In this document: positions 2,367-20,355 of the stretch, one piece after another | Layout: every line of letters begins with the position of its first letter | How positions within the stretch are numbered: the first letter of the stretch is position 1 | Origin: a virus | Virus record (IMG/VR): IMGVR_UViG_3300044630_000916 | Coordinates: 1 to 22,927 of that record | Length of the DNA: 22,927 nt | Reading direction: 5' to 3' (one strand) | Translations under genes and position numbers: made by a program | Notes under the pieces: generated by a model | The model's input: only the letters and a program-made list of their open reading frames with translations | Database searches by the model: none | Told to the model about the DNA's origin: nothing

Positions 2367-2395
2367 TGGGGTGATGCTTCGGCTCACCCCATTTT
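2367..2395 (+). terminator. Rho-independent terminator with a C(UUCG)G loop
   Basis: The arms TGGGGTGA (2367-2374) and TCACCCCA (2384-2391) pair perfectly. Inside them GC-TTCG-GC forms the extra-stable UUCG tetraloop with one bulged T at 2375. TTTT (2392-2395) follows directly. It closes the small-gene block and separates it from the head operon. The hairpin overlaps the possible GTG 2371 and ATG 2374 starts of the portal frame, which argues that the portal starts further downstream. Confidence 0.8.
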
Positions 2396-2403
2396 GCTAT
2401 CCT
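2395..2403 (+). promoter_or_regulatory. Candidate extended -10 promoter for the head operon
   Basis: TGC-TATCCT (2395-2403) fits an extended -10 element (TGN followed by TANNNT) immediately after the terminator and 16 bases before the preferred portal ATG at 2419. No good -35 is present at the usual distance. It would explain how the head genes are transcribed downstream of a strong terminator, but read-through is an equally possible explanation. Confidence 0.3.
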
Positions 2404-2418
2404 CGCCATGTGGCTGAC

Positions 2419-3849
2419 ATGCGTGAACTAGGAACATCAGGATTTCAACATTCTGGCGGTTCTGTAACAGACGAATTTTTAGCGAATCTTCAAGGTATTC
2501 GTGGTATTCGTACATGGCGTGAAATGGCTGATAACGATCCCGTGGTCGGTGCGATGCTGTTTGCTGTTGAACGGCTGATCCTGAATCTGAAATGGAAAGT
2601 AGATCCCTTTGTTGAAGAGGGCAAGACCAAAGCATCCAAGAAAGATGAAAAGGTCGCCGAATTTGTTGAGCAATGCTTGTACGACATGGAAAACTCTTGG
2701 GATGGAACGGTCGCCGAGATCCTGTCGTTTCTGACTTACGGCTGGTCGTACTCCGAGATCGTCTACAAGAAGCGTGGCGGGATGGACACCAAAGACAAGT
2801 CCAAGCGATCCAAATTTAATGACCAAAAAATTGGTTGGAGAAAGATTTCTAACCGAGCGCAAGAAACATTGTTCCAGTGGGACATTGATGAATCTGGCGA
2901 TGTGAGAGCAATGCAACAATTAGACCCGTCTGGCGGTCGTGGTCTGGTGTCAATTCCCATTGAGAAGGCTCTGCACTTCCGTACAACCTCCGCTAGAAAC
3001 AATCCTGAAGGACGAAGCCTTTTACGCAATGCGTACCGCCCGTGGCGATTTAAACGCACCATTGAAGAAATTGAAGCGATCGGCATTGAACGAGATCTGG
3101 CTGGTCTGCCAGTCGCTTATGTCCCGCCGTCCATGCTTTCGTCCACCGCAACAACAGACGAAGTGTCTGCCCGCAATGCGATCCAAAACATGGTGCGTGG
3201 AATCAAACGAAACCAAAACGAAGGCATCCTTTTCCCGCTCGCTTTTGACGAGGGTGGGCGAGAGATGTACAAACTGACTCTTCTGTCCAGTGGTGGCAAC
3301 CGCCAGTTCAACACTGATGCCATTGTTGCCCGCTATGACCAGCGAATCACAATGACAATTTTGGCTGACTTCATTTTGTTGGGTCACGAAAAAGTCGGTT
3401 CGTTCGCTTTGGGTTCGTCAAAGATTGACTTGTTTCTGACTGCGATCGCCCAGATGACCGCTCAGATTTCTGATGTGTTCAACAAGGATGCTGTTCCGAG
3501 ATTGTTGAAGTTGAACGGTATGGATCCCCAGCGCGCACCCGTGATGCGAGTGGAAGAGTTGCAGTCCACCGATCTAACTGTTCTTGGTGACTTCATCACC
3601 AAAATGGCTGGTGCTGGAGCGTTGCAAGTTGATTCTGGTCTGGATGAGTTTGTTCGTGATCTTGCTGGCTTGCCACCAAAGGTTGAAGAAGAGGGTGCTT
3701 TACAACAAGGTGCCCAGATGCAACCGAATGCGATGCCCCAACCTCCTGTAGCACCGCAGTCTGCTCCACCCGCTGAAGCGCAACCTGCTCAAGCCCCGCC
3801 CGCTCAAGCGTCTGGTAGTGGTTCGGTTGAAGACTACATCATTCAATAA
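2419..3849 (+). CDS. Portal protein
   Basis: The portal forms the dodecameric ring at one capsid vertex through which DNA is packaged and ejected. The N-terminus MRELGTSG...GIRTWREMADNDPVVGAML and the following helix ERLILNLKWKVDPF match the opening of Mu gp29/DUF935-like portals of actinobacterial phages. The middle has RTTSARNNPEGRSLLRNAYRPW, the conserved clip/stem-side signature, then GIERDLAGLPVAYVP and a long helical crown region. The last 50 residues are low-complexity Pro/Ala/Gln. I choose ATG 2419 (476 aa) because the upstream GTG 2371 and ATG 2374 lie inside the terminator hairpin and homologs begin near MRELGTSG. The ribosome site there is weak. No terminase gene is next to it in this window. 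Confidence 0.88.
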   Translation: MRELGTSGFQHSGGSVTDEFLANLQGIRGIRTWREMADNDPVVGAMLFAVERLILNLKWKVDPFVEEGKTKASKKDEKVAEFVEQCLYDMENSWDGTVAEILSFLTYGWSYSEIVYKKRGGMDTKDKSKRSKFNDQKIGWRKISNRAQETLFQWDIDESGDVRAMQQLDPSGGRGLVSIPIEKALHFRTTSARNNPEGRSLLRNAYRPWRFKRTIEEIEAIGIERDLAGLPVAYVPPSMLSSTATTDEVSARNAIQNMVRGIKRNQNEGILFPLAFDEGGREMYKLTLLSSGGNRQFNTDAIVARYDQRITMTILADFILLGHEKVGSFALGSSKIDLFLTAIAQMTAQISDVFNKDAVPRLLKLNGMDPQRAPVMRVEELQSTDLTVLGDFITKMAGAGALQVDSGLDEFVRDLAGLPPKVEEEGALQQGAQMQPNAMPQPPVAPQSAPPAEAQPAQAPPAQASGSGSVEDYIIQ

Positions 3850-4717
3850 AGCCTCACCTTTAACGCCAAACGAGATCGGGATGGCTGGTGCTGTCTCTCA
3901 AATTTCGTCAAGTTTGTCTCGGAGTTTGTTGGGTGTTATTGGTGGTTCGTCGGATGGTGTAACTGCTTTGGGTCGGTTGAGTTCGGTTGATATTTTGGAT
4001 CAACTTCAGGACTTAACACCAGCAATTATTGGTCCGTTGATAAACGAACTTAACTTGTCTGCCATTGATGCGATTGCTTCTATCCCGCCACAGTTAAGCA
4101 TCGGAGTCAGTTTCAATACCACTGACCCTCGCGCGCTCGCGTGGGCGACCCAGCGGGCTGGCGAGTTCGTTGTCCAAATCAGTGACGAGGTACGGTCACA
4201 GATCAGGGATCTGATCTCTCGTGGATACCGTGACCAAATGACTGTAGATGCCATTGCAAGAGAACTACGGAACATTGTCGGGTTGCATTCTCGTTGGGCT
4301 ACCGCAGTGGAAAACATGTATGTACGAACACTTGACGGGCTTATCAATTCTGGTGTTGCATTAGGTATGGCGACTACGCAGGCAACCAGTCTTGCGGGGG
4401 CGTACCGTGACAAGTTGATCGCTTCACGGGCTAACACGATCGCCAGAACCGAAGTCATTGGGGCTAATAACGCTGGACGCTATTTGGGGTGGCAACAGTT
4501 CATGCAACAGTCTGGTTATCCGCCGAACTTGATGCAGAAAGAATGGGTTGTTGGTCCTGACGGTTGGCAGGGGATTAATGTATGCGATCTGTGTCTTGAG
4601 TTAGATGGCACGATTGTTGGTGTGAATGATGAGTTTCCTAGTGGTCGGTTGATGCCTCCGTTGCATCCGAATTGTCGTTGTACTGCTTTGCTGATTTTTC
4701 CTGAGGATGGTTTGTGA
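3818..4717 (+). CDS. MuF-like minor head protein
   Basis: A minor capsid protein of the SPP1 gp7 / Mu gpF family, which binds the portal and enters or lines the head. The C-terminal half carries the family signatures ARTEVIGANNAGR (about residues 209-221) and a Cys/His cluster: CDLC (Cys256, Cys259), LDGT, then MPPLHPNCRC (His283, Cys286, Cys288). The N-terminal half is helical. The start is uncertain. GTG 3818 and TTG 3827 overlap the end of the portal gene, while ATG 3881 would leave a 31-base gap and drop 21 residues (SFNKASPLTPNEIG...). Unlike MuF polymorphic toxins, it ends right after the MuF domain. The effector domains sit in the separate genes that follow, coupled through a TGATG overlap. 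Confidence 0.85.
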   Translation: MVRLKTTSFNKASPLTPNEIGMAGAVSQISSSLSRSLLGVIGGSSDGVTALGRLSSVDILDQLQDLTPAIIGPLINELNLSAIDAIASIPPQLSIGVSFNTTDPRALAWATQRAGEFVVQISDEVRSQIRDLISRGYRDQMTVDAIARELRNIVGLHSRWATAVENMYVRTLDGLINSGVALGMATTQATSLAGAYRDKLIASRANTIARTEVIGANNAGRYLGWQQFMQQSGYPPNLMQKEWVVGPDGWQGINVCDLCLELDGTIVGVNDEFPSGRLMPPLHPNCRCTALLIFPEDGL

Positions 4718-6423
4718 TGCCGTACAAGATTGAGCAGAGGGCTGACAAGTTTGTTGTTGTTCGTGAAGACGGCGGGAGAGTTGTTGGTACGCATTCGTCT
4801 AGGGCTAAGGCGACGGCTCATGTGCGGGCTTTGTATGCAAATGTTAAGGATGCCATTGAGAAGGCAAAGTTTGCTTCTCGTAGCGAAGCAGGCAAGTACG
4901 CCGCTCACATTCGGTGGATGCGAGAGCGGGGTATGGAACCGTTAACGCCTGATGCTTGGCGTAGCCAGAACGCTCAACCAGTTCAACCGACAAGAAGTTC
5001 TTATGAAAGTTCGTTAGATGCGATCACAAGTTTTGCTAGTGATGAGTTTCAAAGCAGATTGCGTGATGCCGGTGCTTCTATAAGGGGTAGTAGGTATGAC
5101 GGTGGCAGATTGGTTCCGTTAGGAGAATATTTAAATATTCAAAACGAAATGTCTGTGGTTAGAGTTCGTAACCCAAATAATCCTGTGAATACAATAATTA
5201 TTGGTTCTCCTCCTCTGATGGCGGTTGAACGAGAAGTCAATGAACTGGGCGGGTTAGTGCATAATGCGATACTAGAAAAAATGAAACAAGACGGACATAT
5301 TTTGCCAAACGGTGAATTTAATACTGCCAAACACGAAGCGTTAATGCAAGTTCGTGACGAATCGCAGGCTGTTGTTGATGAGATTAGAGCCAAAGCCAAA
5401 GAATTAGGGCTACAACAGTTCACTGGTTATGAAAACGGTGCCCAAACTGAAGAAATGAAAATTGGGTGGCGTGGAGATCCTAAAGATATAGATACTGCGG
5501 ACCTCCCTCCTCGTCTCAAAAATTTGCACGAAAAATGGGACACACTGCACCAAGAATTTTACGAAATTCCGTGGAGTGAACGAGATGCGAATGTTTCAAA
5601 AAGAGAACAGTTAGATGCCGCTAAAGACGAATACGAGAAAGCCGCGCTCGCCGATTTTGAAACTTGGTTTAACGCTAACCACAATCCGTCAGGATCTGGA
5701 AGTCACAAAGATCAGTTTTCAAAAATAAGTAATAATCACAACAACAATATGAGAGCGGTCTGGTCTTATCCAAATTATGTGGATCGGTATGCTGAAAGTT
5801 TTAGTAAAGTCATGGAAGATCTAAATATTTCTGCCAAGTCACAAATTGGTAAATCTGACCAAATTGATTTAAGTAGAAGTAGGTTGACCAAAGCAGAAAA
5901 AGAAAAGTTTGCTAGGGACATTCACACATTTTTTCCTGCTAAAGCAATCAAAATTTTTAGTGATAGATATGGCTTACTGAAAGTAACAAAATCCAAAGGT
6001 GGTGGGCATTGGAATGTTAGTGATGTACAAATTTTGACATCTAATTCGGAAGGTACGAACATACATGAATTTATGCATGCTTTAACTTATGCGGATCGTC
6101 GGGCTAACTTTGTGGAACAAGCATTTCTTATGCGACGGCAAACAGTTGGTGGGCGTAATAATCAACCTATTAAAGAACGCATTGTTAATGGTTGGGAAAA
6201 ACCTAAACAAACTTATGACGGAGGAAGAGGTAGACGGTTTGACTCTCTATATATTCGTGACGAGTTTGCGGATGAATATACGGGCAGGCATTATTCGTCT
6301 GGTCATACCGAAACTATGACAACTGGTTTGGATCGCCTGTCTGAAGGTGGCACTCATATTGAAGATCAGGATCACATGAACTCTACTTTAGGTTTGCTTG
6401 TAGCGATTGGGTTGGGACAATGA
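4717..6423 (+). CDS. Effector-like zinc metalloprotease with N-terminal address motif
   Basis: A 568-residue modular protein. Residues 1-45 (KFVVVREDGGRVVGTHSSRAKATAHVRALYANV) match a short domain that opens many phage head-associated proteins. Residues 48-81 hold the shared motif KAKFASRSEAGKYAAHIRW plus its GMEPLTPDAW tail. A long charged helical region follows. The C-terminal catalytic domain has NIHEFMHAL (His450, Glu451, His454), a DEFADEYTGRHY segment and a likely third ligand Glu532 in HTETMTTGL. HExxH with a Glu about 78 residues later is a gluzincin-like zinc protease layout. The substrate is unknown. ATG 4717 overlaps the MuF stop; a GTG sits one codon upstream. Codons change from T/G-rich to A-rich after about 5000. 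An internal-virion or host-targeting role is inferred from the motif and context. Confidence 0.75.
   Translation: MPYKIEQRADKFVVVREDGGRVVGTHSSRAKATAHVRALYANVKDAIEKAKFASRSEAGKYAAHIRWMRERGMEPLTPDAWRSQNAQPVQPTRSSYESSLDAITSFASDEFQSRLRDAGASIRGSRYDGGRLVPLGEYLNIQNEMSVVRVRNPNNPVNTIIIGSPPLMAVEREVNELGGLVHNAILEKMKQDGHILPNGEFNTAKHEALMQVRDESQAVVDEIRAKAKELGLQQFTGYENGAQTEEMKIGWRGDPKDIDTADLPPRLKNLHEKWDTLHQEFYEIPWSERDANVSKREQLDAAKDEYEKAALADFETWFNANHNPSGSGSHKDQFSKISNNHNNNMRAVWSYPNYVDRYAESFSKVMEDLNISAKSQIGKSDQIDLSRSRLTKAEKEKFARDIHTFFPAKAIKIFSDRYGLLKVTKSKGGGHWNVSDVQILTSNSEGTNIHEFMHALTYADRRANFVEQAFLMRRQTVGGRNNQPIKERIVNGWEKPKQTYDGGRGRRFDSLYIRDEFADEYTGRHYSSGHTETMTTGLDRLSEGGTHIEDQDHMNSTLGLLVAIGLGQ
4858..4959 (+). 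other. Address motif copy 1 (long form)
   Basis: Encodes EKAKFASRSEAGKYAAHIRW then MRERGMEPLTPDAW. This is the first of six copies spread over five genes. It separates the N-terminal domain of the metalloprotease from its helical and catalytic parts. Confidence 0.8.
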
Positions 6424-9236
6424 TTAGGTTCGGGTATGTCCAGAATGGTGTTCAGCGGTTTGCTGAGTGGACTGAAGAGTCTGGGCTTGTATGCGAAGAC
6501 GATTTGCTTGATGCCGTCAATCTTTTGATTGGGGCTAAGGCTCCTGTTAAGTGTTCTTGGGTCGGGTATTTGATGGAAGCGTCTGTTGATACTCCTGTGC
6601 AGGCGTGGGGGACTATCAATAAGGCATTGAAGTGGTGTAATGGTGTTGAGTTGGTTCGTTGTACGCCACCGTTGATTGAGTATGACGAGTTTTCGGAACC
6701 TGAAGAGGATCTGCTTGAGAAAGCAACTTTTAGTTCACGATCTGAAGCAGGCAGATATGCCGCCCAACAGCGTTGGAAGAACCATGCGAAACAAGAAACG
6801 CTGTTAACTCCAACCGATGATGTTTCTTTGGCACAAAAAACTGGTCAACCAATTACATGGTTGCTTCCTGCTACACGGGATATGCGGTTAAAAGGTTTGT
6901 TAAGTAGTTTGGCTCCTCATTTTATTGCTACTGGTGTGTCAGTCCAAGATTTTGACTCTGTGTTGGGTGATCCAGCAATTAAACCGTTGATTAAATATTT
7001 GGAAGATAAAGGTATTGTTGATATACCAGATTTTTATAGTTCTGAGGGTGCGACTAATGCTGAGTTGGTTGCTCACGGGTTAATTGTTTCGGCGATGCAA
7101 GACCTTGCTTTGAAGATGAGGTCTAGCAGTTTGGATGTTGACCGAAGCAAATCGTTCAATCAGGCAATTCAGATCGCTACTGATGGTTTTCCAACAGTCA
7201 ACATGGGTATTACCGCTTTTGAGATGATGATGGATGAGGGCGGTCGTTACAAGACACAGTTTGAGGCTGGTGATTCTGGTGGATATTTTAGTCCAGATTT
7301 GCGGGCGGCTTTTGAATCTAGCGTGTTGGGTTTACATCCTGACATGGATGCGACTAAGCGTCCCGTGTATGGCACTATGCAGACCTCAACAAGTTTAAAA
7401 ACAAGTGAAGATGCTCAAATGTACGGTGGCATTGTTTTGCAGTTAAAGAATAATGTTCGGGATCGGACAACTGTTGCTTACAACGATTCGTTGGGTATGG
7501 CGACAAGAACTGCTCCAGCAAACAGTGTTAAAGATGATTCTGGTGGCATGTTTCGTACTGGCATGATTACGGAACCGTTTTTTTATGTTGAGGCTCAGAT
7601 TCATGGTGGTGTCAACATGGATGATGTTGATGCTGTTTGGATTCACAATTTTACGGGTGTAGATGCTGAGGCTCCTCGTCGTGTAAGGGAAGCGTTGGAT
7701 GCGAATGGGTACACGGATGTTCCTGTGTTGCGTGTGGGCGTGGACGAACCTGTGGAGAAAGCGAAGTTCAGTTCACGAAGTGAGGCAGGTAGGTATGCGG
7801 CTCACATTAGGTGGATGAATGAGCGTGGTATGACTCCGATGACCGCCGACCAGTGGAATGCACAGAACTCTGGTGGTTCGGAGCGCATGCGAAAGATTAA
7901 AAGCATGCAAGCGGATGTTTCTAAGCGACTTAAAAACTTGAATGATGTTTTGGTTAAGTCTGGTTTGGCATCTGAGGGAATGTGGAACCAAGGAAGATTA
8001 GATAGTAATGGTGATTTAAAGTATGTTGTTGTTGATCCTAAAGATTGGGATAAGACCAGCGTTCCTGAGGTAAGTAAAAGTCCGATGGCGGCATGGCTTG
8101 TTGAAGTAGACATAAAAAACCCAGAGAGTCCTTTTGCAACATATCAAGTTCCTAATGCTGAGGTCATGGCTTTGATGGAGGATGTTAAAACTTTAGGTTC
8201 GTTAATTGAAGAAGAAGTTCAAGAGCGGATCAACGCACAAAATATTCGTTTGGCAACTGGAGCAGAAGCATCCCGTGACTTTACTTTAAAAATTGTTAAC
8301 GCCCAGAGAGTGATAACGCATTACGAAACAATCACTTCCAGATTTTTGAATGATTTCATCACTTTTAAAGCAGATCCGAATGACCCAACACCAAAATTTC
8401 AACAATATGTTAAGTCAGGTCAACCTAAAATGATTGGGAGCCTTGTTGATTATGCCCCAAGTTTGGGAGAATTTATTGAAAGTAATAACAGTGCTGACGA
8501 AAAAGTTTTGCTTTCTGCTTTAATAGAAAAAACGCGATCTTCTGTTCTTGAATTAAACCAATTAGGATTTGAGCAGAACACTTCGGCAAAATATCGGCGT
8601 GAAGTTTTGGCTGAAATTCGTTCTTTCGGTGCTGACGAAGGTACTCCTTATGAAATTGTTACTGGTTTCAATTTCCCGAATGGGGCACCTGTAGAAGTCC
8701 GTATTGCTGATGCGATGCAAAATTTACCAACGGCATGGATTGACAATTTAAAAACTTACACGCAAACAAAAACTACGCATAGAGTGTTAAGAGCAAAAAC
8801 TGTTAACGAAATGCAATCAGGGTACATTGAAGCGAATCATATAATTCAAACTTCGGCAAATGCTCAGACTGCTTTTGTTATCCACGAATTGGTTCATGCT
8901 GTTGAAGCGTCAAGCCCAGTCATGCGAGCAATGGTTCATTCTTTTGGTGTCAATAGAAGAGTCGGTAATTTTAGACCTTCAGAAGAAAAGTTTGGTAGCA
9001 CTTTTGCTCAAAGGTTACAAACTGGGATTTGGGAAGAATCTGGGCGATCTGGTTTCGTTGAAGATAGTTATTTTGATAAGTATTCTGGGCGTGTGTACGG
9101 CGGGTTCGCGTATTCTGCTCACGAACAGTTGACTACGGGGACAGATTATTCGTTGTTTGTCAATACGATTCGTCCGCATGACCGTATTGACTCGGATCAG
9201 TTGACTTTTACATTAGGAATGTGGGCTTCAGCATGA
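6420..9236 (+). CDS. Double effector: ADP-ribosyltransferase-like (DUF3626-like) domain plus zinc metalloprotease
   Basis: A 938-residue protein with two motif-effector units in series. Residues 1-99 form a small N-terminal domain shared with the 9233 gene. Motif copy 2 is at 100-124. Residues about 300-420 hold RPVYG (Arg314), MYGGIVLQL (Tyr335), a T-x-x-x-x-DSLG turn (Asp356) and FFYVEAQIHGG (Glu391, Gln393). This is the order seen in DUF3626-like domains, which I read as ADP-ribosyltransferase-like; NAD use is unproven. Motif copy 3 is at 446-479. The last 460 residues are helical and end in a protease domain with FVIHELVHAV (His822, Glu823, His826), KYSGRVYGG and HEQLTTG (Glu902). That domain is clearly related to the 4717 protease (same spacing, 76 against 78). 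Start is in an ATGA overlap. The gene could be a fusion of two once separate genes. Confidence 0.72.
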   Translation: MIRFGYVQNGVQRFAEWTEESGLVCEDDLLDAVNLLIGAKAPVKCSWVGYLMEASVDTPVQAWGTINKALKWCNGVELVRCTPPLIEYDEFSEPEEDLLEKATFSSRSEAGRYAAQQRWKNHAKQETLLTPTDDVSLAQKTGQPITWLLPATRDMRLKGLLSSLAPHFIATGVSVQDFDSVLGDPAIKPLIKYLEDKGIVDIPDFYSSEGATNAELVAHGLIVSAMQDLALKMRSSSLDVDRSKSFNQAIQIATDGFPTVNMGITAFEMMMDEGGRYKTQFEAGDSGGYFSPDLRAAFESSVLGLHPDMDATKRPVYGTMQTSTSLKTSEDAQMYGGIVLQLKNNVRDRTTVAYNDSLGMATRTAPANSVKDDSGGMFRTGMITEPFFYVEAQIHGGVNMDDVDAVWIHNFTGVDAEAPRRVREALDANGYTDVPVLRVGVDEPVEKAKFSSRSEAGRYAAHIRWMNERGMTPMTADQWNAQNSGGSERMRKIKSMQADVSKRLKNLNDVLVKSGLASEGMWNQGRLDSNGDLKYVVVDPKDWDKTSVPEVSKSPMAAWLVEVDIKNPESPFATYQVPNAEVMALMEDVKTLGSLIEEEVQERINAQNIRLATGAEASRDFTLKIVNAQRVITHYETITSRFLNDFITFKADPNDPTPKFQQYVKSGQPKMIGSLVDYAPSLGEFIESNNSADEKVLLSALIEKTRSSVLELNQLGFEQNTSAKYRREVLAEIRSFGADEGTPYEIVTGFNFPNGAPVEVRIADAMQNLPTAWIDNLKTYTQTKTTHRVLRAKTVNEMQSGYIEANHIIQTSANAQTAFVIHELVHAVEASSPVMRAMVHSFGVNRRVGNFRPSEEKFGSTFAQRLQTGIWEESGRSGFVEDSYFDKYSGRVYGGFAYSAHEQLTTGTDYSLFVNTIRPHDRIDSDQLTFTLGMWASA
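6717..6791 (+). other. Address motif copy 2 (short form)
   Basis: Encodes EKATFSSRSEAGRYAAQQRW then KNHAK. The AHIRW/GMTP tail of the long form is replaced by QQRWKNHAK, as in copy 4. It lies between the shared N-terminal domain and the ADP-ribosyltransferase-like domain. Confidence 0.78.
7755..7856 (+). other. Address motif copy 3 (long form)
   Basis: Encodes EKAKFSSRSEAGRYAAHIRW then MNERGMTPMTADQW. It sits in the middle of the 938-residue protein, directly after the ADP-ribosyltransferase-like domain, where a new effector unit begins. Confidence 0.8.
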
Positions 9237-10207
9237 AATTAGATTGGTTGACCGTTGACGGTGACAGTATTTCGTGGGATAACGGGGTGGTTGATGCCCC
9301 GCAAGAGTTTTTGGACAATGTGGACTTTCTGGTTGATGCGAAGGTTCGTGTTCGGTCGCCTCGGTTTTATTTTGCTGAGGAGGTTGCTGGTATGGACACG
9401 ATGTTGGGGGCTTTGTTGACGATTGAGTTTTTGTTGGATGTTTTGGGTGTTGGTTTGGTTGAGGCTCCGATGCCGTTTGGGGTGTCGGATGTTTTTGTGA
9501 CTGATAATCACGATGTGTTTGATGGTTCGGGTGAGTTTGAGAAGGCTATGTCTCGGAGTGAAGCGGGCAGGTATGCGGCGGAACAGCGTTGGAAGAACCA
9601 TGCGAAGAAGGTTGATCCTGTTCGGGTGCTTGATCCGCAGTATCAGAAAGTTGCTGATCGGATTAACGCTGGTACAAAATCAGTAACTGATGCTGGTTTC
9701 CAAATTGAAATAATCAATTCTCCTGAAGATCGGCAACGCATATTGGAGATGCATACAAAATTTAAAGATTTTGTTGTTGAACAAAGGAATTTGTGGCGAG
9801 ATACAAAAGGAAAAGAAGGTAAATATTTTTCTGATAGAACAATTTCTGGTCTTCAGTTAATGACAACTTCTATAAAAAGGGGAGCAACACGAGGGACAAC
9901 AATTGTTGTTCACGATGGATCATTAGTTGCTGGTGCCGCTCTTGCTCATATTCAGACAAACAGTATGGCTGATGGTAAACCTATGTCAATTTGGCTTATG
10001 GGGTCGGCTCATATAGTTGAAGGTGCTGGTTCTGCTATGTATGGCGCGCTTTTGAAATGGGGTCAATCTCAAGGTGTTACATCTATTGAATTAGATCCGT
10101 TACCTGATGCTAAAACTTTTTGGCAGACAAAAATGAGAATGATTTGGACTGGTGAAGAAATGGTTTATTCTGATAGCAAAATTGGAATGATTGGGGCGTT
10201 GAAATGA
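9233..10207 (+). CDS. Effector-like GNAT acetyltransferase with address motif
   Basis: ATG 9233 overlaps the previous stop as ATGA and gives 324 residues. A GTG at 9221 would lie inside the upstream gene. Residues 1-100 resemble the first 99 residues of the 6420 protein (LDxVxxLVxAKxxV, then GVxLVExPxP). Residues 103-126 hold the short-form motif with a two-residue deletion (EKAMSRSEAGRYAAEQRW). The C-terminal domain has the GNAT features: strand TTIVVHDGSLVAGAAL, a strand ending in IVEG, the acetyl-CoA loop GAGSAMYGALLKWGQ (about 264-278), strand VTSIELDPL and the terminal KTFWQTKMRMIW. GNAT enzymes transfer an acetyl group from acetyl-CoA to an amine on a protein or small molecule; the target is unknown. 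Codon use changes to A-rich after about 9660, just past the motif. Confidence 0.75.
   Translation: MKLDWLTVDGDSISWDNGVVDAPQEFLDNVDFLVDAKVRVRSPRFYFAEEVAGMDTMLGALLTIEFLLDVLGVGLVEAPMPFGVSDVFVTDNHDVFDGSGEFEKAMSRSEAGRYAAEQRWKNHAKKVDPVRVLDPQYQKVADRINAGTKSVTDAGFQIEIINSPEDRQRILEMHTKFKDFVVEQRNLWRDTKGKEGKYFSDRTISGLQLMTTSIKRGATRGTTIVVHDGSLVAGAALAHIQTNSMADGKPMSIWLMGSAHIVEGAGSAMYGALLKWGQSQGVTSIELDPLPDAKTFWQTKMRMIWTGEEMVYSDSKIGMIGALK
9539..9610 (+). other. Address motif copy 4 (short form)
   Basis: Encodes EKAMSRSEAGRYAAEQRW then KNHAKK. It lacks the KFS part of the consensus but keeps SRSEAGRYAA and RW exactly. Confidence 0.75.
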
Positions 10208-11283
10208 TCGGGTCGTTGGATGATATGGATGATGCGATGCCTGATCTATTGGATTGGCTTCGTTCTAATGTTGAGTTTGAGAAAGCAAAGTTCAGTTCTC
10301 GTAGTGAGGCTGGGAAGTATGCGGCTCATATTAGGTGGATGAACCAGAGGGGTATGACTCCGTTGTCTGCTGAGGCTTGGACGGCTAGTCAGAGTGCTGA
10401 TGCGACACCTGTTGTTACGGCTCCGACTGTACCGTCACGGTTTACTGCTACTGGTATGTGGTGGGATGCACAACCGCCCGCTCTTGCTTCTATGAAAGAT
10501 GCGATCACATGGTTGCAGGATAAATGGGGTGGCACAACAAAAGATCAACGGCGTAGATTCAGAGTAAAACTGAATGCTATGGGAAGTAACCCCAAAACGG
10601 ATCATTTGGCTCAAGCGTATGCCATTGCAATGGATAACTTGTTTAAATTTGCACCTATCGTGGCGGAAACTATTGAAGAAGTAGTTTGGGATGAAAATCA
10701 AATACGGAATTCGTGGGGTCAGGCTAGTCGTGATGGTCACAGTCTAAATTTCATTGCAAGCACTTTTGTACAAACTTTGATACAGCCAGATGGAACAGTT
10801 ATCCCTTCGGAGCAATATGCGTTGTTTGCAAAAGAACAAGCATTTTCAACGGGGTTCAAATCTTCAAGGTCGCTGAGTAGCACTTTTTATCACGAGTTTG
10901 GGCACCACATTGGGTTTGCCGCTGGTAATAAAGCGTTGTACGGCGATGTTAAAGAAGTTAGACCATCCTTGTATGCGGATTCAGATGATCGTAAAAAGTA
11001 CAATCGTGAACTTGCCAAATTGATTAGCCCGATTCTTAAAGAGCATTACGGAGATGAAAGTCGTGCAAGAATTGAACTTGATGATAAAGCGCAATATAAA
11101 ATACGGGGAAAAATAGAAGAAGACATATCCAAATATGCTTTGACTAACTACGACGAATTGGTTGCGGAATCAGCGGCACAGTATTTTGCCGCCAAATTTG
11201 AACCTGACCAACCGCCAGCGTCACCGTTAGCAATCAAAATTGTTGAGACATTATTGAATTACATAGAAGGAGAGAACAAATGA
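10204..11283 (+). CDS. Effector-like zinc metalloprotease, HEFGHHIG type, with address motif
   Basis: A 359-residue protein starting in an ATGA overlap. A 25-residue acidic leader is followed directly by the long-form motif (residues 26-59, KAKFSSRSEAGKYAAHIRW...GMTPLSAEAW). The catalytic part has STFYHEFGHHIGFAAG (His230, Glu231, His234), and later TNYDELVAESAAQYFAA with Glu318 and Glu322, one of which is the probable third zinc ligand. The HExxHxxG core and the DELVAES helix differ from the other two metalloproteases in the cluster, so this is a third, separately acquired protease. Its N-terminal domain is much shorter than in the neighbours, so the motif is almost at the N-terminus. Substrate unknown. 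Confidence 0.75.
   Translation: MIGSLDDMDDAMPDLLDWLRSNVEFEKAKFSSRSEAGKYAAHIRWMNQRGMTPLSAEAWTASQSADATPVVTAPTVPSRFTATGMWWDAQPPALASMKDAITWLQDKWGGTTKDQRRRFRVKLNAMGSNPKTDHLAQAYAIAMDNLFKFAPIVAETIEEVVWDENQIRNSWGQASRDGHSLNFIASTFVQTLIQPDGTVIPSEQYALFAKEQAFSTGFKSSRSLSSTFYHEFGHHIGFAAGNKALYGDVKEVRPSLYADSDDRKKYNRELAKLISPILKEHYGDESRARIELDDKAQYKIRGKIEEDISKYALTNYDELVAESAAQYFAAKFEPDQPPASPLAIKIVETLLNYIEGENK
10279..10380 (+). other. Address motif copy 5 (long form)
   Basis: Encodes EKAKFSSRSEAGKYAAHIRW then MNQRGMTPLSAEAW, only 25 codons from the start of its gene. This shows that the motif does not need a preceding folded domain. Confidence 0.8.
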
Positions 11284-11516
11284 CTGAGGGTTTAACGATC
11301 TGTTGGGCTTGTAAGCACTTGCGAGCAGATTCAGCCGTTGTTGACGGTTGGATGGTTTCCACATGCGACGCTTTCCCTGACGGTATTCCGATCAAGATCT
11401 TTATTGATGGGTTTGACCATCGGAAAGAATTTGGTGGCGATAACGGGGTACGCTTTGAACCGATAACGGTTGATATGGGCGTTGAGGCTCTAAAAATAGT
11501 TGAGGAGTTGTCGTGA
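11280..11516 (+). CDS. Small Cys/His protein of a widespread uncharacterised family (78 aa)
   Basis: ATG 11280 overlaps the previous stop, with GAAGGAGAG upstream. The protein reads CWACKHLRAD (Cys8, Cys11), then TCDAFPDGIP with a third cysteine, then a DHR and GDNGVRFEP segment. The CxxC...CxAFPxGIP...DHRxP...GDxGIxF pattern is one I recognise from many small uncharacterised proteins of phages and bacteria. The cysteines and His may bind metal. It directly follows the effector genes and is coupled to them, so it could help or restrain them, but no such role is known. Confidence 0.7.
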   Translation: MTEGLTICWACKHLRADSAVVDGWMVSTCDAFPDGIPIKIFIDGFDHRKEFGGDNGVRFEPITVDMGVEALKIVEELS

Positions 11517-11695
11517 TTTTGATTGCAATGGTTGATAATGCGAAGGTGTTTGACATTGAAGACGATGATCCGATGTTCGGCAAGCGTGTTGTTCTGGAGC
11601 GTGGCGGTGTTCAGAGTGCCCCGATCTTGTTGGAGAATGTGGTTACGAAAATGTCTATGAGCAAGTGGGAATGGATCAACCCCCCTACTAAATAA
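11513..11695 (+). CDS. Small hypothetical protein (60 aa)
   Basis: GTG 11513 overlaps the preceding stop as GTGA, with TTGAGGAG at 11500-11507 as ribosome site. The sequence (IAMVDNAKVFDIEDDDPMFGKRVVLERGGVQSAPILLENV) suggests a few beta strands and an acidic loop. No family is recognised. It ends 30 bases before the protease gene and is the last gene of the coupled effector run. Confidence 0.6.
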   Translation: MILIAMVDNAKVFDIEDDDPMFGKRVVLERGGVQSAPILLENVVTKMSMSKWEWINPPTK

Positions 11696-11725
11696 TGCTT
11701 ATCGGGTTTACTGTAAGGTGACCGC

Positions 11726-13735
11726 ATGCATACACACGAAATAGACCAGTGGATTAACGGCGATCTGGCGTGGGAAGATTTGTCTGTTGAAGCGCAACGA
11801 AGTGTTGATGCTGATGCGATGAAGGCTGAACCTGTCGCCGAAATGGAACTGGTTCACAAGTCGGTTGCTGAGAAGCGATTCACTTTGGGTCCGTGGTATA
11901 TCCCTAATCGGTTGGATGCTCATAATGAGTGGACGGACGCTGACGAGTTGCAGGCTGGTTTGTGGGATTATGTTCGTAAGGGTGATCGTGGTATCCGTTT
12001 ACAGCACAATCGTGACATTGTGGCTGGTGAATGGGTTGAGGCTATGCAACTGCCTGTACCGATGCGAATGCAGAAAGCGGCTGACGGCGGGGATGTTGAA
12101 TATCCTGAGGGGACAGTGTTTTTGGGTGTTGTTTGGAAGCAGTGGGCGTGGGATCTGGTGAAGAACGGCAAAATTAAAGGTTTTTCTATTGGTGGTTCGT
12201 CGGCTCGTCTGCCAATTGAGCCTGTTTCTAAGGCTGTCGGGTTCAAACCGATGTTTATTCCTGCGTTGATTCGGGTTTCAGGTAAGTCTTTTGCTGTCCG
12301 TCCAGATGGTGGAGGGGTTCGGGTTTCGTCGGGTTCTGATGCTGTTGTGTTTGATCCGTATCGGGCTGATGTGGTTGCTAAGTCTGTTTCTGGAGCGCAG
12401 TTTGCTGATGCGAAGACGATGGTGGCGATTTCTAAAGCGATCTTGACTGGCAATGTTGATGCTGGAATGTGGGCTGATACTGGGGTTTCGTGGGTTTTTG
12501 TTAAGGCTAAGTTCAGTTCTCGTTCTGAGGCGGCTCGTTACGCCGCTCATATTCGTTGGGCTACTGAACGAGGTGAAACCCCGATGGGTGCGGGCGAGTT
12601 TTCGGAACAAATTAAGTCGTCTGCGGATTATGCGATGATGAATTTGAAGAAAAATCGTGATGCTTTGGCTTCCAAGATGGAGTTTCCGCATAACGATCTT
12701 CCTGTTGGTCCGTTGGGTTTGCCAACTTCTCCTGCTGGTAAGTCTTTGTTTAACACTTCTCCGTCGCTTGGCGGGCATGTTGATTTTGACGCTATGGGCA
12801 AGTACATGATGGATCGTTTAGATCAACCGAACATGGGTTTTGGTAAGGCGGGGTTGCCTACAGAAGCACCGTATGATGTTCTTCGTCGTTTTATGACTCC
12901 TGAACGGCGGGCTTTGCACGATGCGATCGTTGACGCTCATTTGGCTGGCAAAACGGCTAGAGATGATACCCCCGAATACACTTGGCTTGGTGGTGGTGGT
13001 GCTTCTGGTAAAACCAGCATTTTGGAATCTGGTGCCGCTAGTGTTCCGACCCGTGTTTTGAAGAATGGTTCGGCTGTACCAAGTGGTGATATGCACTCTG
13101 TTGAGATCAATGCTGACGAAATCAAAGATTTGTTACCAGAGTTTTTGGCGTTGACAAAGGGTGGGGAAAAAAGGGTTTATGTCACTGCTGACGGTAGAGA
13201 AAAGCCTTATGAATTGGGTCGTTCAACTGAGCGGGCACGATTTGTTGCGGCTGGTTTTACTCACGAAGAGTCGTCTATCCTTGCGAAGCGTATTAACTCC
13301 GAGGCTATGTACAGAGGTTTGGACATTGTGATGGATGGTACTGCTGACGGCAAACCGGGGGCACAAGCGAAGAAGGTTGCTGTGGCTCAAGCAAACGGCT
13401 ATAAAACTCGTTTGATTATGGTGACTATCCCTACCGAAGTGGCTATTGTTCGTTCTAATGAGCGAGGTATTACTTCGGGGCGTAAGGTTCCTGAGTTCGC
13501 TTTGCGTGACGCTCATGTTGGGGCTTCGGCAAGATTTTTGGAAACGGCACCGCTGTATGACTCTTTTGAGGCTTATGATAACTCAGGGCGACCGCCACAA
13601 AAATTTGTAAGTAAGAGTACCAAGGGTGGTCGGGTTACTATTCAAAATAAAGCCCTGTATGATGCTTTCTTAGCGAAGGCTGGCGAAAGTTTGGGCGAGT
13701 CAACAGCAAGGGATGAACCGTGGACATTAGCGTAA
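11726..13735 (+). CDS. Prohead protease (XkdF-like) fused to a zeta-toxin-like kinase
   Basis: A 669-residue fusion. Residues about 50-185 form an XkdF-like head maturation protease: FTLGPWYIPNRLDAHNEW, RLQHNRDIVAGEWVEAM (probable catalytic His94) and IKGFSIGGSSARL (probable Ser154). This enzyme cleaves scaffold and head proteins during capsid maturation. Residues 259-292 carry motif copy 6. Residues about 400-640 form a zeta-toxin-like P-loop kinase: Walker A GGGGASGKTS (422-431), INADEIKDLLPEF (Asp464), HEESS (513-517), LDIVMDGT (Asp537) and Arg580/Arg586 in NERGITSGRKVPE. Zeta toxins phosphorylate UDP-N-acetyl sugars or related substrates; the substrate here is not known. AAGGTGA precedes ATG 11726. 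The protease could cut itself free of the kinase near the motif (inference). Confidence 0.82.
   Translation: MHTHEIDQWINGDLAWEDLSVEAQRSVDADAMKAEPVAEMELVHKSVAEKRFTLGPWYIPNRLDAHNEWTDADELQAGLWDYVRKGDRGIRLQHNRDIVAGEWVEAMQLPVPMRMQKAADGGDVEYPEGTVFLGVVWKQWAWDLVKNGKIKGFSIGGSSARLPIEPVSKAVGFKPMFIPALIRVSGKSFAVRPDGGGVRVSSGSDAVVFDPYRADVVAKSVSGAQFADAKTMVAISKAILTGNVDAGMWADTGVSWVFVKAKFSSRSEAARYAAHIRWATERGETPMGAGEFSEQIKSSADYAMMNLKKNRDALASKMEFPHNDLPVGPLGLPTSPAGKSLFNTSPSLGGHVDFDAMGKYMMDRLDQPNMGFGKAGLPTEAPYDVLRRFMTPERRALHDAIVDAHLAGKTARDDTPEYTWLGGGGASGKTSILESGAASVPTRVLKNGSAVPSGDMHSVEINADEIKDLLPEFLALTKGGEKRVYVTADGREKPYELGRSTERARFVAAGFTHEESSILAKRINSEAMYRGLDIVMDGTADGKPGAQAKKVAVAQANGYKTRLIMVTIPTEVAIVRSNERGITSGRKVPEFALRDAHVGASARFLETAPLYDSFEAYDNSGRPPQKFVSKSTKGGRVTIQNKALYDAFLAKAGESLGESTARDEPWTLA
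12500..12601 (+). other. Address motif copy 6 (long form, between protease and kinase)
   Basis: Encodes VKAKFSSRSEAARYAAHIRW then ATERGETPMGAGEF. It is the most divergent long copy (EAAR for EAGR, changed tail), and it lies in the linker between the XkdF-like protease and the zeta-like kinase. Confidence 0.78.
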
Positions 13736-14001
13736 ACCGTATTAGCCGTTTGATGCAGGCTATTGTTTTGGGCGAGGACGCTGAGGCGTTATGCGAATCG
13801 CCTGAGGAGTTGCAGATTCTTCCGCAGTTGCGTGAGGAGTGCCAGTTTGAAGATGGAATGATTTTGGATTTCCAGAATGATTCTGTGGATGCGAATGCTT
13901 GGGATTGTGCTGGGTTTGATCGTGATGCTTGGGAAGCGGCGGGGATGCCTGACGATGCTTGGGCGTTTGTGAAGCCGTATGTATCAGAGGCTTGGGCTTG
14001 A
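13720..14001 (+). CDS. Small acidic protein with D-x-x-AW repeats (93 aa)
   Basis: GTG 13720 overlaps the end of the protease-kinase gene by 16 bases, with AGCAAGGGA upstream, so translation is probably coupled. The N-terminal half is helical and very acidic (LGEDAEALCESPEELQ). The C-terminal half has four spaced AW units, DANAWDCAG, DRDAWEAAG, PDDAWAF and SEAWA, an 8-11 residue repeat. No family is recognised. An acidic protein made from the same message right after a zeta-like kinase could be its antidote, but zeta antitoxins are normally helical epsilon-type proteins and no likeness was seen. Confidence 0.68.
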   Translation: MDISVNRISRLMQAIVLGEDAEALCESPEELQILPQLREECQFEDGMILDFQNDSVDANAWDCAGFDRDAWEAAGMPDDAWAFVKPYVSEAWA

Positions 14002-14026
14002 CACGGGTTTAGTGTTTTGGTACCCT
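13998..14026 (+). promoter_or_regulatory. Promoter-like element, copy 3 of 3, with good -10
   Basis: TTGACA (13998-14003), a 17-base spacer CGGGTTTAGTGTTTTGG, and -10 TACCCT (14021-14026). This is the most complete of the three copies and is well placed for the 14045 gene. The -35 overlaps the stop of the DAW-repeat gene. Confidence 0.75.
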
Positions 14027-14044
14027 TTGAATGAAGGAGGGTAA

Positions 14045-15595: not shown

Positions 15596-16546
15596 ATGCC
15601 CCAGCCCACACAAAATCAGGTACATGTTGATGCGATTCTGACGAACATCAGTGTCGCTTACATGCAAAAAGCCGAAAACTTCATTGCAAACAAGATCTTC
15701 CCGATCGTTCCTGTTGAGAAGCAGTCGGACAAGTTCTTCAAGTACACCAAGAACGACTGGTTCCGTGACGAAGCACAGCGACGCGCTGATGCGACGGAAT
15801 CTGCTGGTGGCGGTTACAACTTGTCAACCGATTCGTACAACGCTGAAGTGTGGGCTTTCCACAAGGATGTTGGCGATCAGACTCGTGCAAATGCTGATGC
15901 TCCTATCAATGTGGATCGTGAAGCGGTTGAGTTCATTACGAGCCGTTTGTTGCTCAAGATGGAAACTGAATTCGTTTCAAGTTATTTCACGAGTGGCATT
16001 TGGGCTACTGACAACACTCCGTCAAACTTGTGGTCGGATTACACCAACAGTGACCCGTTGAACGATGTTGAAGATGCGAAGCGAGCAATCCTTTCCACTA
16101 CTGGTTTTGAACCGAACACGCTTGTGCTTGGTTACGATGTTTTCAAGGAATTGAAGAATCACCCAGATCTCGTTGACCGTATCAAGTACACCTCGTCTTC
16201 GGTTATCACGACTGACATGATCGCTCGTATGTTTGATGTTGATCGTGTTGTGGTTTCAAAGGCTGTCAAGGCAACCAACAATGAAGGTGCCACTGGTGCT
16301 TATGACTTCACTGCTGGTAAGAATGCGCTCTTGTGCTATTCGGCTCCGTCACCGGGTCTTCTCCAGCCGTCTGCTGGTTACATCATGTCTTGGACTGGTG
16401 TTTCTGGTGGTCTTGGTCAGACGATCGGTTCAAGCCGTTTCCGTATGGAATCAGTGAAGGCTGACCGTATTGAAGCAGAAATGGCTTTTGACATGAAGGT
16501 CGTTGCCGCTGACCTCGGTTACTTCTTCGCCAGCGTGGTTTCGTGA
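15596..16546 (+). CDS. Major capsid protein
   Basis: A 316-residue protein with AAAAGGAA upstream of ATG 15596. It starts VDAILTNISVAYMQKAENFIANKIFPIVPVEKQSDKFF, then NDWFRDEAQRRADATESAGGGY, the opening of a major capsid family (HK97-type fold by inference) found in actinobacterial phages. Later it has FEPNTLVLGYDVFKELKNHPDLVDRIKY, the conserved helix and strand of the A-domain region, and an ending of KADRIEAEMAFDMKVVA. No N-terminal delta-domain is visible; the separate scaffold gene takes that role. Its last codons overlap the next gene (GTGA). Confidence 0.88.
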   Translation: MPQPTQNQVHVDAILTNISVAYMQKAENFIANKIFPIVPVEKQSDKFFKYTKNDWFRDEAQRRADATESAGGGYNLSTDSYNAEVWAFHKDVGDQTRANADAPINVDREAVEFITSRLLLKMETEFVSSYFTSGIWATDNTPSNLWSDYTNSDPLNDVEDAKRAILSTTGFEPNTLVLGYDVFKELKNHPDLVDRIKYTSSSVITTDMIARMFDVDRVVVSKAVKATNNEGATGAYDFTAGKNALLCYSAPSPGLLQPSAGYIMSWTGVSGGLGQTIGSSRFRMESVKADRIEAEMAFDMKVVAADLGYFFASVVS

Positions 16547-18713: not shown

Positions 18714-19280
18714 ATGACGGTAGGGTTACGACTCATGTTGAGACGGATTCTTGTTTTGTCGGTTTTGTTGGTTGGTTGTGGCAGTTTGAAGGGGGCTGAT
18801 TCCCCGCCGACAACTTCGGTGACGATGCGAACAGATCCCCCTGTGATTGTTCCAGAAACAACTGTGGTGATCCCGACCACCACTACTGTTCCCGTGACTA
18901 CCACGACTGAGGTTGATTGGATTGGTGTTGCTGAGACTTGGGCTTTGCAAACTGATGTGGCTCGTTTTGTTCACGGGCGTTGCGGTGAGTGGCACGATCT
19001 GGCGATGACGGTCGGTTGGCATGAAGAGGAATGGGAAACATTAAGCACCGTTCTGTGGACTGAATCACGATGCGATCCTTCTGCATGGAACGGACATGAT
19101 GCGGGTTTGAGCCAGATAAATCAGATTCATACTGAATGGCTAAACCAAATGGGTTTTTCGCACCCTGATGACATGTTTGATCCTGCGTTGAATCTGGCGT
19201 TTGCTTACAAGTTGTATTCGTCAAGGGAAGAGAAGGGTCAATGCGGTTGGAAGCCGTGGACTGAACCCTGCAACGACTAA
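18714..19280 (+). CDS. Secreted lipoprotein with lytic transglycosylase-like (SLT) domain
   Basis: A 188-residue protein starting with a lipoprotein signal: basic RLMLRR, hydrophobic ILVLSVLL, lipobox LVGC (Cys22). ATG 18735 (MLRRI...) would give an equally good signal. A Thr/Val/Pro linker (about residues 45-67) leads to a lysozyme-fold domain: LSTVLWTESRCDPSAWN (probable catalytic Glu117), DAGLSQINQIHTEWL, and NLAFAYKLYSS. Such domains cut peptidoglycan between MurNAc and GlcNAc. Lipid anchoring is odd for a phage tail or lysis enzyme, because it would place it on the outer face of the host membrane. It may remodel the wall during infection or be the endolysin; no holin is adjacent. Confidence 0.75.
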   Translation: MTVGLRLMLRRILVLSVLLVGCGSLKGADSPPTTSVTMRTDPPVIVPETTVVIPTTTTVPVTTTTEVDWIGVAETWALQTDVARFVHGRCGEWHDLAMTVGWHEEEWETLSTVLWTESRCDPSAWNGHDAGLSQINQIHTEWLNQMGFSHPDDMFDPALNLAFAYKLYSSREEKGQCGWKPWTEPCND

Positions 19281-19408: not shown

Positions 19409-19633
19409 GTGGCGAAGTACAAGGTGTTAATTGGAATTGATACTCCGAGCGGTCGGTATGAGGCTGACGCTCTAGTTGACCACACCTCCATTCCGTCCAA
19501 GTCCATTAAATGGTTGACCGACCAAAAGATCATTGAACTTGTTTCTGGCAAAGCACCTGAAGTGGTTGAAGAAACCGTTGAAGAGGTCGTTGAAGAGGTC
19601 GTTGAAGAAGAAGTTGAAGAAGGCGGTTTCTGA
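19409..19633 (+). CDS. Small protein with acidic repeat tail, upstream of tail tube genes (74 aa)
   Basis: GTG 19409 is chosen because AAAAGGA precedes it; the frame is open back to 19364 but through the hairpin. The first 45 residues (YKVLIGIDTPSGRYEADALVDHTSIPSKSIKWLTDQ) are a small alpha/beta segment. The rest is a low-complexity acidic tail made of VEE(V/T) units, encoded by a 12-base near repeat. The end overlaps the first tail protein by one base. Small genes of this kind often precede the tail tube gene in actinobacterial phages. Role unknown. Confidence 0.7.
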   Translation: MAKYKVLIGIDTPSGRYEADALVDHTSIPSKSIKWLTDQKIIELVSGKAPEVVEETVEEVVEEVVEEEVEEGGF

Positions 19634-20355
19634 TGGCATTCGTTCACGGTAAATCAACAGTCGTTTTGTTTAATGCGACCAATCTCTCGCCGTATTTGAA
19701 GGAAGTTTCAGCCAATCAGGGTATTGACATGTCGGATGTGACCGCTTTCGGTACTTCTGGTGCTAAGTCTTACATTCCGGGTTTGAAAGACGGAAAGATT
19801 TCGGCTTCTGGAATGTTTGACGGTGGCTCTGGTGCTAGTGACTCAGTGTTCCAAACGGCTTTGGGTGCCACTGTTGGCGACCTATCAGTTTTCCCTGACA
19901 CTGATGCGATCGGTAAGCGTGGCTTCATTGCTGAATGCCACGAAACTTCATACAACTTGTCTAGCCCTGTTGCTGATGTAGTTCAGGCTTCAGCCGAATT
20001 TCAGGCAACTGGCGGAGTTGATTACGCAGTGAGCCTTCAGGCTCTTAGTGCCCAAACCGCTACAGGTAACGGAACTTCTGTGGATAACTCTGCTTCGTCT
20101 GCTAACGGTGGTGCAGGCATGTTGCATGTAACTGCCAACACGCAAGACAGTACGAGCATTGTCAAGATTCAGCATTCGTCTGACAACAGCACTTGGGCTG
20201 ATCTTGTCACTTTTACTACTGTTCCGACCGTCACAACGACTTCGGAAAAGATCGTGGTTGCTTCGGGAACCACTGTTAACCGTTACCTGCGAACCACTCG
20301 GACTATCGCTGGAACGGGTTCAATCACCTACCAAACCTCATTCGCAAGAAAGTAA
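19633..20355 (+). CDS. Major tail protein 1, with extra C-terminal domain
   Basis: A 240-residue tail tube protein. It opens AFVHGKSTVVLFNATNLSPYLKEVSANQGIDMSDVTAFGTSGAKSYIPG in the style of siphovirus tail tube subunits and is paralogous to the next gene. Residues about 140-240 form an added beta domain (GAGMLHVTANTQDSTSIVKIQHSSDNSTWADLVTFT...NRYLRTTRTI) of a type appended to tail and baseplate proteins, likely displayed on the outside of the tail where it can bind sugars or the cell surface. ATG 19633 overlaps the previous stop by one base. Confidence 0.83.
   Translation: MAFVHGKSTVVLFNATNLSPYLKEVSANQGIDMSDVTAFGTSGAKSYIPGLKDGKISASGMFDGGSGASDSVFQTALGATVGDLSVFPDTDAIGKRGFIAECHETSYNLSSPVADVVQASAEFQATGGVDYAVSLQALSAQTATGNGTSVDNSASSANGGAGMLHVTANTQDSTSIVKIQHSSDNSTWADLVTFTTVPTVTTTSEKIVVASGTTVNRYLRTTRTIAGTGSITYQTSFARK

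Follow-up and report, generated by a model that had tools for sequence, protein, structure and literature searches.

Only for a few models (T4, P1) is it understood how phages choose the proteins that they package and inject. A short sequence can suffice for packaging, as described in passages on the T4 capsid-targeting sequence (CTS; PMC3012670) and the P1 DarB signal (PMC9024508). Polyvalent proteins, in the sections of PMC5512222 devoted to them, comprise the same enzyme classes as the locus treated here, and both injection and processing into units are predicted for them; the ADP-ribosyltransferase (ART) clade reported for them there is Tox-ART-HYD2. The pre-toxin domains of polymorphic toxins are proposed in parts of PMC3482391 to be processing sites, and a passage of PMC9503650 reports a Nudix enzyme fused to a capsid-processing serine peptidase. 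The locus in question lies in a viral fragment of 22.9 kb, hereafter the window (IMG/VR record IMGVR_UViG_3300044630_000916, analysed over its full 22,927 nucleotides), in which five large proteins carry six copies of a 20-residue motif, each ahead of an enzyme-like module. Judged from its sequence, the region is best read as a split, modular effector set of an actinobacterial-type phage, and the motif would most likely be the pre-effector tag of split polyvalent proteins, a per-module signal for release or loading in the procapsid.

A motif ahead of exchanged modules

The motif was sought in the six-frame translation and in the open reading frames (ORFs) of the window. The initial annotation had described six near-identical copies in five consecutive large proteins, and both ORFs and coordinates were found again. 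"Near-identical" is somewhat strong: identity to the copy at 7755 is 78-82% for the three further long copies, and 67-72% over 21-25 amino acids (aa) for the two short ones. The genes are consecutive as far as large genes go, but two small ORFs (78 and 60 aa) separate the fourth from the fifth. Ten alignment columns are invariant among the six copies (SRSEA..YAA..RW). When conservation was scored over the pooled motif proteins, the AAxxRW part served as the anchor, so that its 100% conservation there is true by construction. The proteins, their modules and the motif copies, each copy found both by motif search and by hidden Markov model (HMM), are as follows.

4714-6423, plus strand: protein 1, a 48-aa carrier, long motif and HExxH peptidase-like module
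4858-4959, plus strand: motif copy 1, long form
6420-9236, plus strand: protein 2, a carrier of about 100 aa, short motif, ART-fold module, long motif and HExxH peptidase-like module
6717-6791, plus strand: motif copy 2, short form
6792-7754, plus strand: ADP-ribosyltransferase-like (DUF3626) module of protein 2 (DUF3626 3.3e-10; SopF by Foldseek)
7755-7856, plus strand: motif copy 3, long form
9221-10207, plus strand: protein 3, a carrier of about 104 aa, short motif and weakly GNAT-like module
9542-9604, plus strand: motif copy 4, short form
10204-11283, plus strand: protein 4, a 25-aa leader, long motif and HExxHxxG module
10279-10380, plus strand: motif copy 5, long form
11726-13735, plus strand: protein 5, an XkdF-type protease, motif and zeta kinase (Peptidase_S78_2, Zeta_toxin)
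11843-12205, plus strand: XkdF protease domain (PF14550 above cut-off)
12503-12598, plus strand: motif copy 6, between protease and kinase
12893-13681, plus strand: zeta-type kinase module (phrog_16619 at residues 390-652, PF06414)

An HMM trained on 184 copies from 29 other virus groups, with the window's relatives excluded, recovers all six copies at E values of 3e-10 to 9e-14. The next match in the window has E 0.83, and no score above 8.7 bits arose in 200 shuffles of the window ORFs, whereas the true copies score 33-45 bits. A chance origin of the motif is ruled out by this independent HMM and the shuffles, and an origin as a DNA repeat or annotation artefact by the HMM and a codon test. 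In the AlphaFold2 model of protein 1, copy 1 contains a helix at residues 56-71, with a predicted local distance difference test (pLDDT) score of about 88 over residues 61-70 and 73 over 51-60; the motif helix in the model of the ART module is of low confidence (pLDDT about 50). The motif has a mean net charge of +2.3 over 17 residues, and its Arg and Trp are conserved.

The motif is not private to the window's phage. Motif alignments run against IMG/VR gave 50 loci in one scan and 67 in another, in overlapping sets, and all 50 related viral records searched whole contain the motif, in 1-13 copies each. The pooled set of 66 records, based on simple ORF calls, holds 292 copies in 219 proteins, or 162 proteins after removal of near-duplicates. 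A copy lies in the ORF set of 61 of these records; among the five without one, four were fetched by motif match, and G012 has a copy in the whole-record search. In all, copies occur in 30 virus groups (the window's and 29 more, grouped at 80% protein identity). Two longer records, G001 and G002, match the window over their first 22.9 kb at 99.99% identity.

The position of the motif relative to the modules is regular. At least 80 aa follow 215 of 218 copies, and the 215 modules so defined fall into 56 BLAST families that include ADP-ribosyltransferases, zeta kinases, HExxH peptidases, GNAT, topoisomerase IB and HNH enzymes, as well as several families with no Pfam match. Units of motif and module are repeated two to five times in 41 of the 162 proteins. 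Start positions of the motif range from residue 2 to residue 393; among 155 complete proteins, the first copy is preceded by at most 20 aa in 16, by 21-60 aa in 72, by 61-140 aa in 45 and by a longer stretch in 22.

In close relatives the two sides of the motif differ in conservation. The carrier of protein 1 is 88-98% identical in the related records G003-G005. Over the close relatives, carrier identity is 83-98% for the first and second positions and 70% for the third, whereas the modules behind them are 45-61% identical, exchanged or located elsewhere, with the exception of the fourth module, which is 78% identical in G005. G004 has the second window carrier at 94% identity, but ahead of a different module, and the window's ART module sits in G004 behind the third carrier type. 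Counted on the first module, in pairs that are not independent of one another, 727 between-record pairs share the carrier only (the module having no detectable similarity), 400 the module only and 180 both; in pairs sharing both, the carrier is more alike than the module in 126 of 180, and in 39 of 51 group pairs. By these comparisons, the conserved N-terminal carriers stay in place, and it is the cargo beyond the motif that is exchanged.

The gene of the head protease provides a natural test of what the motif belongs to. Cargo of at least 136 aa follows the XkdF domain in 20 of 25 XkdF records, from 12 virus groups, and the motif is intact in all 20. In G004 and G005 the XkdF protein ends 19 aa past a motif that has decayed, G006 and G009 have XkdF with neither cargo nor motif, and in G033, the 25th record, the sequence ends too early to be scored. 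Proteases of this kind are established to get into the procapsid unaided, and the XkdF protease presumably does the same. Since the motif is kept only with cargo, in XkdF it would serve the cargo, and this dependence, together with its presence before each module, favours a per-module function over a single loading address. Such a function could be release, docking to the protease or ejection; cleavage is not proven by this test.

Enzyme modules and head-gene context

Protein 5 matches Zeta_toxin (4.2e-16, with a P-loop at residue 423) and Peptidase_S78_2, the XkdF family (4.6e-9), in Pfam, which bears out both the zeta-like kinase and the statement that one carrier is the protease itself. Kinase and head protease are joined in 19 records, scored by a full-length region or by P-loop cargo of similar length, with the P-loop itself detected in 18. 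The proposed ADP-ribosyltransferase-like domain is likewise upheld by a DUF3626 match (2.8e-9 for whole protein 2) and by the AlphaFold2 model of the module (mean pLDDT 78), which Foldseek matches to two entries of the ADP-ribosyltransferase SopF (E 8.5e-7 and 2.6e-6); DarT comes next at E 0.06-0.27, above the usual threshold. Invariant residues of the module include R, S, E and Q, with no evident H-Y-D set.

The peptidase parts of proteins 1 and 2 form one cluster, in agreement with the description of two related HExxH modules. H451, E452 and H455 of protein 1 are invariant or nearly so among 22 aligned sequences, and the modules of both proteins hold further conserved residues. For the HExxH module Foldseek has no match at E 0.001, the rows listed for protein 1 being coiled-coil matches. 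VIA-align gives rows for the zincin ACE2 over residues 392-568 (Z 5.2, 103 residues, 4.3 A) alongside unrelated rows of like Z, and none of them is decisive for a zincin fold. Two further assignments are weaker than first suggested. The GNAT match of protein 3 has E 0.11 in the window and 0.0014-0.0062 in relatives, all below the Pfam cut-off. Protein 4 is a putative protease called by its HExxHxxG motif; Pfam gives no match to it, and its best PHROG match does not go below E 0.02. Its relatives in G004 and G005 are fused behind an ART module. Proteins 1, 3 and 4 carry a single enzyme each.

Pfam scans covered 158 of the 162 non-redundant motif proteins, the four that cross the border of a fetched piece being left out. 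Matches comprise XkdF (15), zeta (12), ADPrib_exo_Tox (10), DUF3626 (8), DUF6321 (7), DUF5872 (7), topoisomerase IB (2), single M90 and ATLF domains, and acetyltransferases and HNH. The PHROG and PADLOC searches each covered half of the motif proteins (79): six of the 79 hit the PHROG for Alt-like RNA polymerase ADP-ribosyltransferases, and PADLOC gave no match among its 79.

The genes were described as sitting between the MuF minor head protein and the prohead protease, and this is the case: Phage_Mu_F lies just upstream, and XkdF is in the fifth protein. Further genes of the window bear on this context.

2371-3849, plus strand: portal protein (Portal_Mu 1e-30, phrog_113 1.1e-85)
3818-4717, plus strand: MuF-like minor head protein (Phage_Mu_F 8.7e-13)
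11280-11695, plus strand: two small motif-less ORFs (78 and 60 aa), from the cargo genes to the protease
15596-16546, plus strand: major capsid protein (phrog_1005 4.6e-99)

XkdF was detected in 25 of 51 records, and portal and MuF in 34 each; many of these records are fragments. The 34 portal-bearing records include near-duplicates, such as the window with G001 and G002. Every one of their 144 motif proteins is on the strand of the portal. In records of at least 25 kb, 64 of 70 motif proteins lie within -10 to +13 kb of the portal, a range picked after the distribution was seen, compared with 37.3 expected by length. The concentration is sharper between portal and XkdF, where 49 of 53 ORFs of at least 180 aa (portal and MuF not counted) have the motif, whereas outside this interval the 12 records concerned have it in 26 of 160; the interval ORFs without it include one cargo-less XkdF gene. 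The description of a constant motif on varied enzymes is supported, the motif being confined to a late-gene context and concentrated from portal and MuF to the protease. A further group of motif genes, whose carriers are of a different type and related to one another, lies at 34869-37555 in G001 and 3679-6462 in G004.

The viruses bearing the motif appear to infect actinobacteria. Such hosts are indicated by WhiB genes, present in 9 of 51 records, and by the nearest relatives of capsid and protease, which belong to Arthrobacter and Microbacterium phages; the window capsid is 50-53% identical to Arthrobacter phage capsid proteins.

Several other features of the window may be noted. The protein of 78 aa at 11280-11516, encoded after the last cargo gene and before the protease, contains cysteines, and small ORFs occupy the same position in most other records with portal and XkdF. 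A promoter-like 39-base repeat with TTGACA (62-100, 859-897 and 13992-14030) precedes the ORFs at 101, 917 and 14045. Among the tail genes, inspection by eye suggests a lipoprotein-like start and a lytic-transglycosylase-like stretch in ORF 18714-19280; two proteins next to each other, at 19633-20355 and 20365-20781, start alike (MAFVHGKS) and look like duplicated tail proteins.

What the motif may do

Could the motif be the address that takes these enzymes into the head? The initial annotation had proposed a shared address, for loading into the procapsid or as a release site for the protease. The constant motif and the head context agree with this idea, but the motif would not be the sole address, because carriers are more conserved than cargo and the motif occurs once per module and is kept between protease and cargo. 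Carrier conservation, repeated units and the protease case together favour a per-module junction or release role at least as much as plain loading. The motif is probably a cargo tag of virion effectors, with release or loading of individual modules as its work.

A model along these lines would run as follows. Each protein is built as a carrier or leader, a 20-residue helical motif and an effector module, with motif and module repeated in some, and the motif would be a cargo-side tag at the start of every module. The proteins would be made late and enter the procapsid via their carriers, the kinase entering as part of the protease. There each module would be recognised by its motif, which most probably offers the XkdF protease a cutting site or a docking helix for freeing that module; its use in module loading or ejection is a close alternative to cutting. 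The freed enzymes would exit with the DNA.

Several observations weigh against this model. Sixteen of the 155 complete proteins leave little room for a carrier. The expectation that the motif always lies near MuF or protease genes, on varied enzymes, mostly holds, most copies being near head genes, but six of the 70 motif proteins of the longer portal-bearing records (in G001, G004 and G008) are 25-34 kb from head genes, in the same orientation. None of 34 portal genes has the motif, and the HMM finds none in the scaffold-region, capsid and MuF ORFs of the window, so that the motif is not a general substrate mark. The cargo-less proteases represent two lineages only, and the window's own group contains one of these. 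In related Arthrobacter phages the XkdF protease is joined to an RNA ligase without the motif, and the HMM finds no copy in the regions read of the nearest named relatives. A nearly invariant helix of 20 residues also exceeds what a protease usually needs. Mean motif identity is 0.665 between copies of the same record before unrelated modules (644 pairs) and 0.607 between copies of other groups before related modules (720 pairs); tested by virus group, the within-record similarity does not reach significance (Wilcoxon p 0.13, with 15 of 23 positive), and partner coevolution was not used as support for that reason.

The closest competitor is a pure loading address, in which the motif would be a capsid-targeting sequence like that of T4, bound by scaffold, portal or MuF and left uncut. 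One constant short element on varied enzymes in a head-gene context is what this predicts, T4 internal proteins are diverse with only the CTS conserved (as passages of PMC3012670 describe), and the 16 proteins with the motif in their first 20 aa resemble that arrangement. One copy per polypeptide would be enough, yet 41 of 162 proteins have two to five; the motif persists between protease and cargo where the two are fused but not where the cargo is gone; and the carriers ahead of it are conserved as though they did the targeting. This makes pure loading possible but doubtful, and since it overlaps with the cargo-tag reading the confidence placed in the two is not meant to be mutually exclusive. 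An unlikely alternative with the same per-module logic is an anchor, a basic helix that would hold the freed module on packaged DNA or bind a chaperone or immunity factor. The conserved Arg and Trp and the positive charge are consistent with it, but no DNA-binding family or structure matches the motif in Pfam or PDB sequences, and its conserved Ala, Gly and Tyr point to a specific protein face no less than to contact with DNA.

The two remaining explanations do without a role in delivery. If the motif were only a recombination linker, surviving as shared DNA for exchange at module borders, the modules really are exchanged across it as expected. However, copies in one record agree in codon at matching residues in 37.7% of cases against 30.6% expected from codon usage (39 records), a choice so nearly random that little DNA is shared and the constraint must act on the protein. 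The small excess, with 11 of the 39 records above expectation by more than 0.1, is a further point that sits less well with the cargo-tag model; the residues are nevertheless conserved over 30 virus groups, and a mere linker is the least probable of the explanations considered. Alternatively, the enzymes might be made and used late in the infected cell and lie in the head operon by chance. The second motif-gene cluster of G001 and G004, after the tail genes and before replication-type genes, would fit such a use, whereas the zeta kinase fused to the head protease in 19 records and the related modules carried on MuF in other phages would not, which leaves it improbable.

A bolder form of the cargo-tag reading, offered tentatively, would make the 20-residue helix a phage "zip code", a per-module signal by which any enzyme placed behind it would be brought into the head, released by cutting and passed to the host. 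If true, zip code, conserved carriers and freely exchanged effectors would give actinobacterial phages a platform dedicated to protein delivery, whose arsenal would run to dozens of module families. Many candidate injected effectors of uncultured phages are marked at once by this single unannotated motif; it could be used to find further effector families, to choose a scissile or docking site, and to test whether head protease or carrier decides delivery. The 56 module families form a list of candidate host-takeover or counter-defence enzymes.

Relation to known delivery systems

The window system, as far as sequences tell, combines traits of known delivery systems with a motif of its own that has no match in the libraries searched. 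The six copies find only SLT_L in Pfam (E 0.05, below cut-off) and no known pre-toxin domain, and PDB sequences yield one chain at E 0.37. Annotated phages give six Mycobacterium records at E 5-10 for the motif, and no match to two carrier sequences or to protein 1. Two scans of bacterial genome contigs (495 and 119 pattern matches) confirmed no relative, which argues against common prophage copies, although the confirmation threshold is strict for a motif of this length. In open-licence PubMed Central papers, four motif strings were absent from the literature searched, and titles and abstract starts on zeta/XkdF/MuF, DUF3626 and shared packaging motifs contain no description of it.

With the T4 capsid-targeting sequence, as presented in passages of PMC3012670, the motif shares the property of a short element common to unrelated injected proteins. 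Unlike the N-terminal signals of T4 and P1, it starts at varied positions, recurs along one protein and is placed behind a conserved carrier; only 16 of the 155 complete proteins have it near the N-terminus. A T4-type CTS is, in addition, both required and enough for encapsidation and is taken off by the prohead protease.

MuF polymorphic toxins, in the parts of PMC5576092 that treat them, likewise combine a phage head context with variable toxin-like enzymes. In the window MuF and enzyme do not share one polypeptide: ORF 3818-4717 has no motif by HMM and no fused enzyme was found on it, and the MuF domain (PF04233) is confined to it, the five motif proteins having no MuF match in Pfam. The cargo here is carried by separate genes. 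TP901-1 ORF33 joins MuF to DUF3626, and the minor head protein of cyanophage PSS2 joins MuF to zeta; these fusions of ART-like and zeta modules fit head delivery of the window's cargo. The Actinomycetia phage DSL-LC01 has a DUF3626 gene directly after the portal (L186 7641-9041), followed soon by a giant ORF (L186 from 10273; record 52800-62669).

Head proteases joined to effectors are also known, with Nudix or with the RNA ligase on XkdF, and the Arthrobacter fusions differ from the window protease in being motif-free. One of them is at L182 8275-9396 (gp18 of Arthrobacter phage Salgado, with relatives), where the protease is joined to an annotated RNA ligase.

Polymorphic toxins with pre-toxin domains, in the passages of PMC3482391 concerned, have a conserved N-terminal trafficking part, a junction element and a variable C-terminal effector, and the comparison of carriers and cargo reveals the same layout of conserved N-terminal parts and exchanged C-terminal effectors. 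Small ORFs adjoin the cargo genes; no immunity gene was identified, no analysis having been aimed at that function. The delivery route differs, and there is no Pfam pre-toxin match.

Polyvalent proteins, known from phages and conjugative elements, resemble the window set in content. Their description in the sections consulted of PMC5512222 places them among late genes of portal-terminase phages and combines disparate enzymes (zincin-like peptidase, ART, GNAT, zeta-like kinase). The motif proteins are likewise encoded beside the virion genes of a portal-terminase phage, and pairings of polyvalent type occur in protein 2 (ART-like and HExxH) and protein 5 (serine protease and zeta kinase). The word "linker" is absent from the text of that paper, and the sections consulted describe no motif of this kind, whereas the window set is split over several genes and places a shared 20-residue motif before every module.

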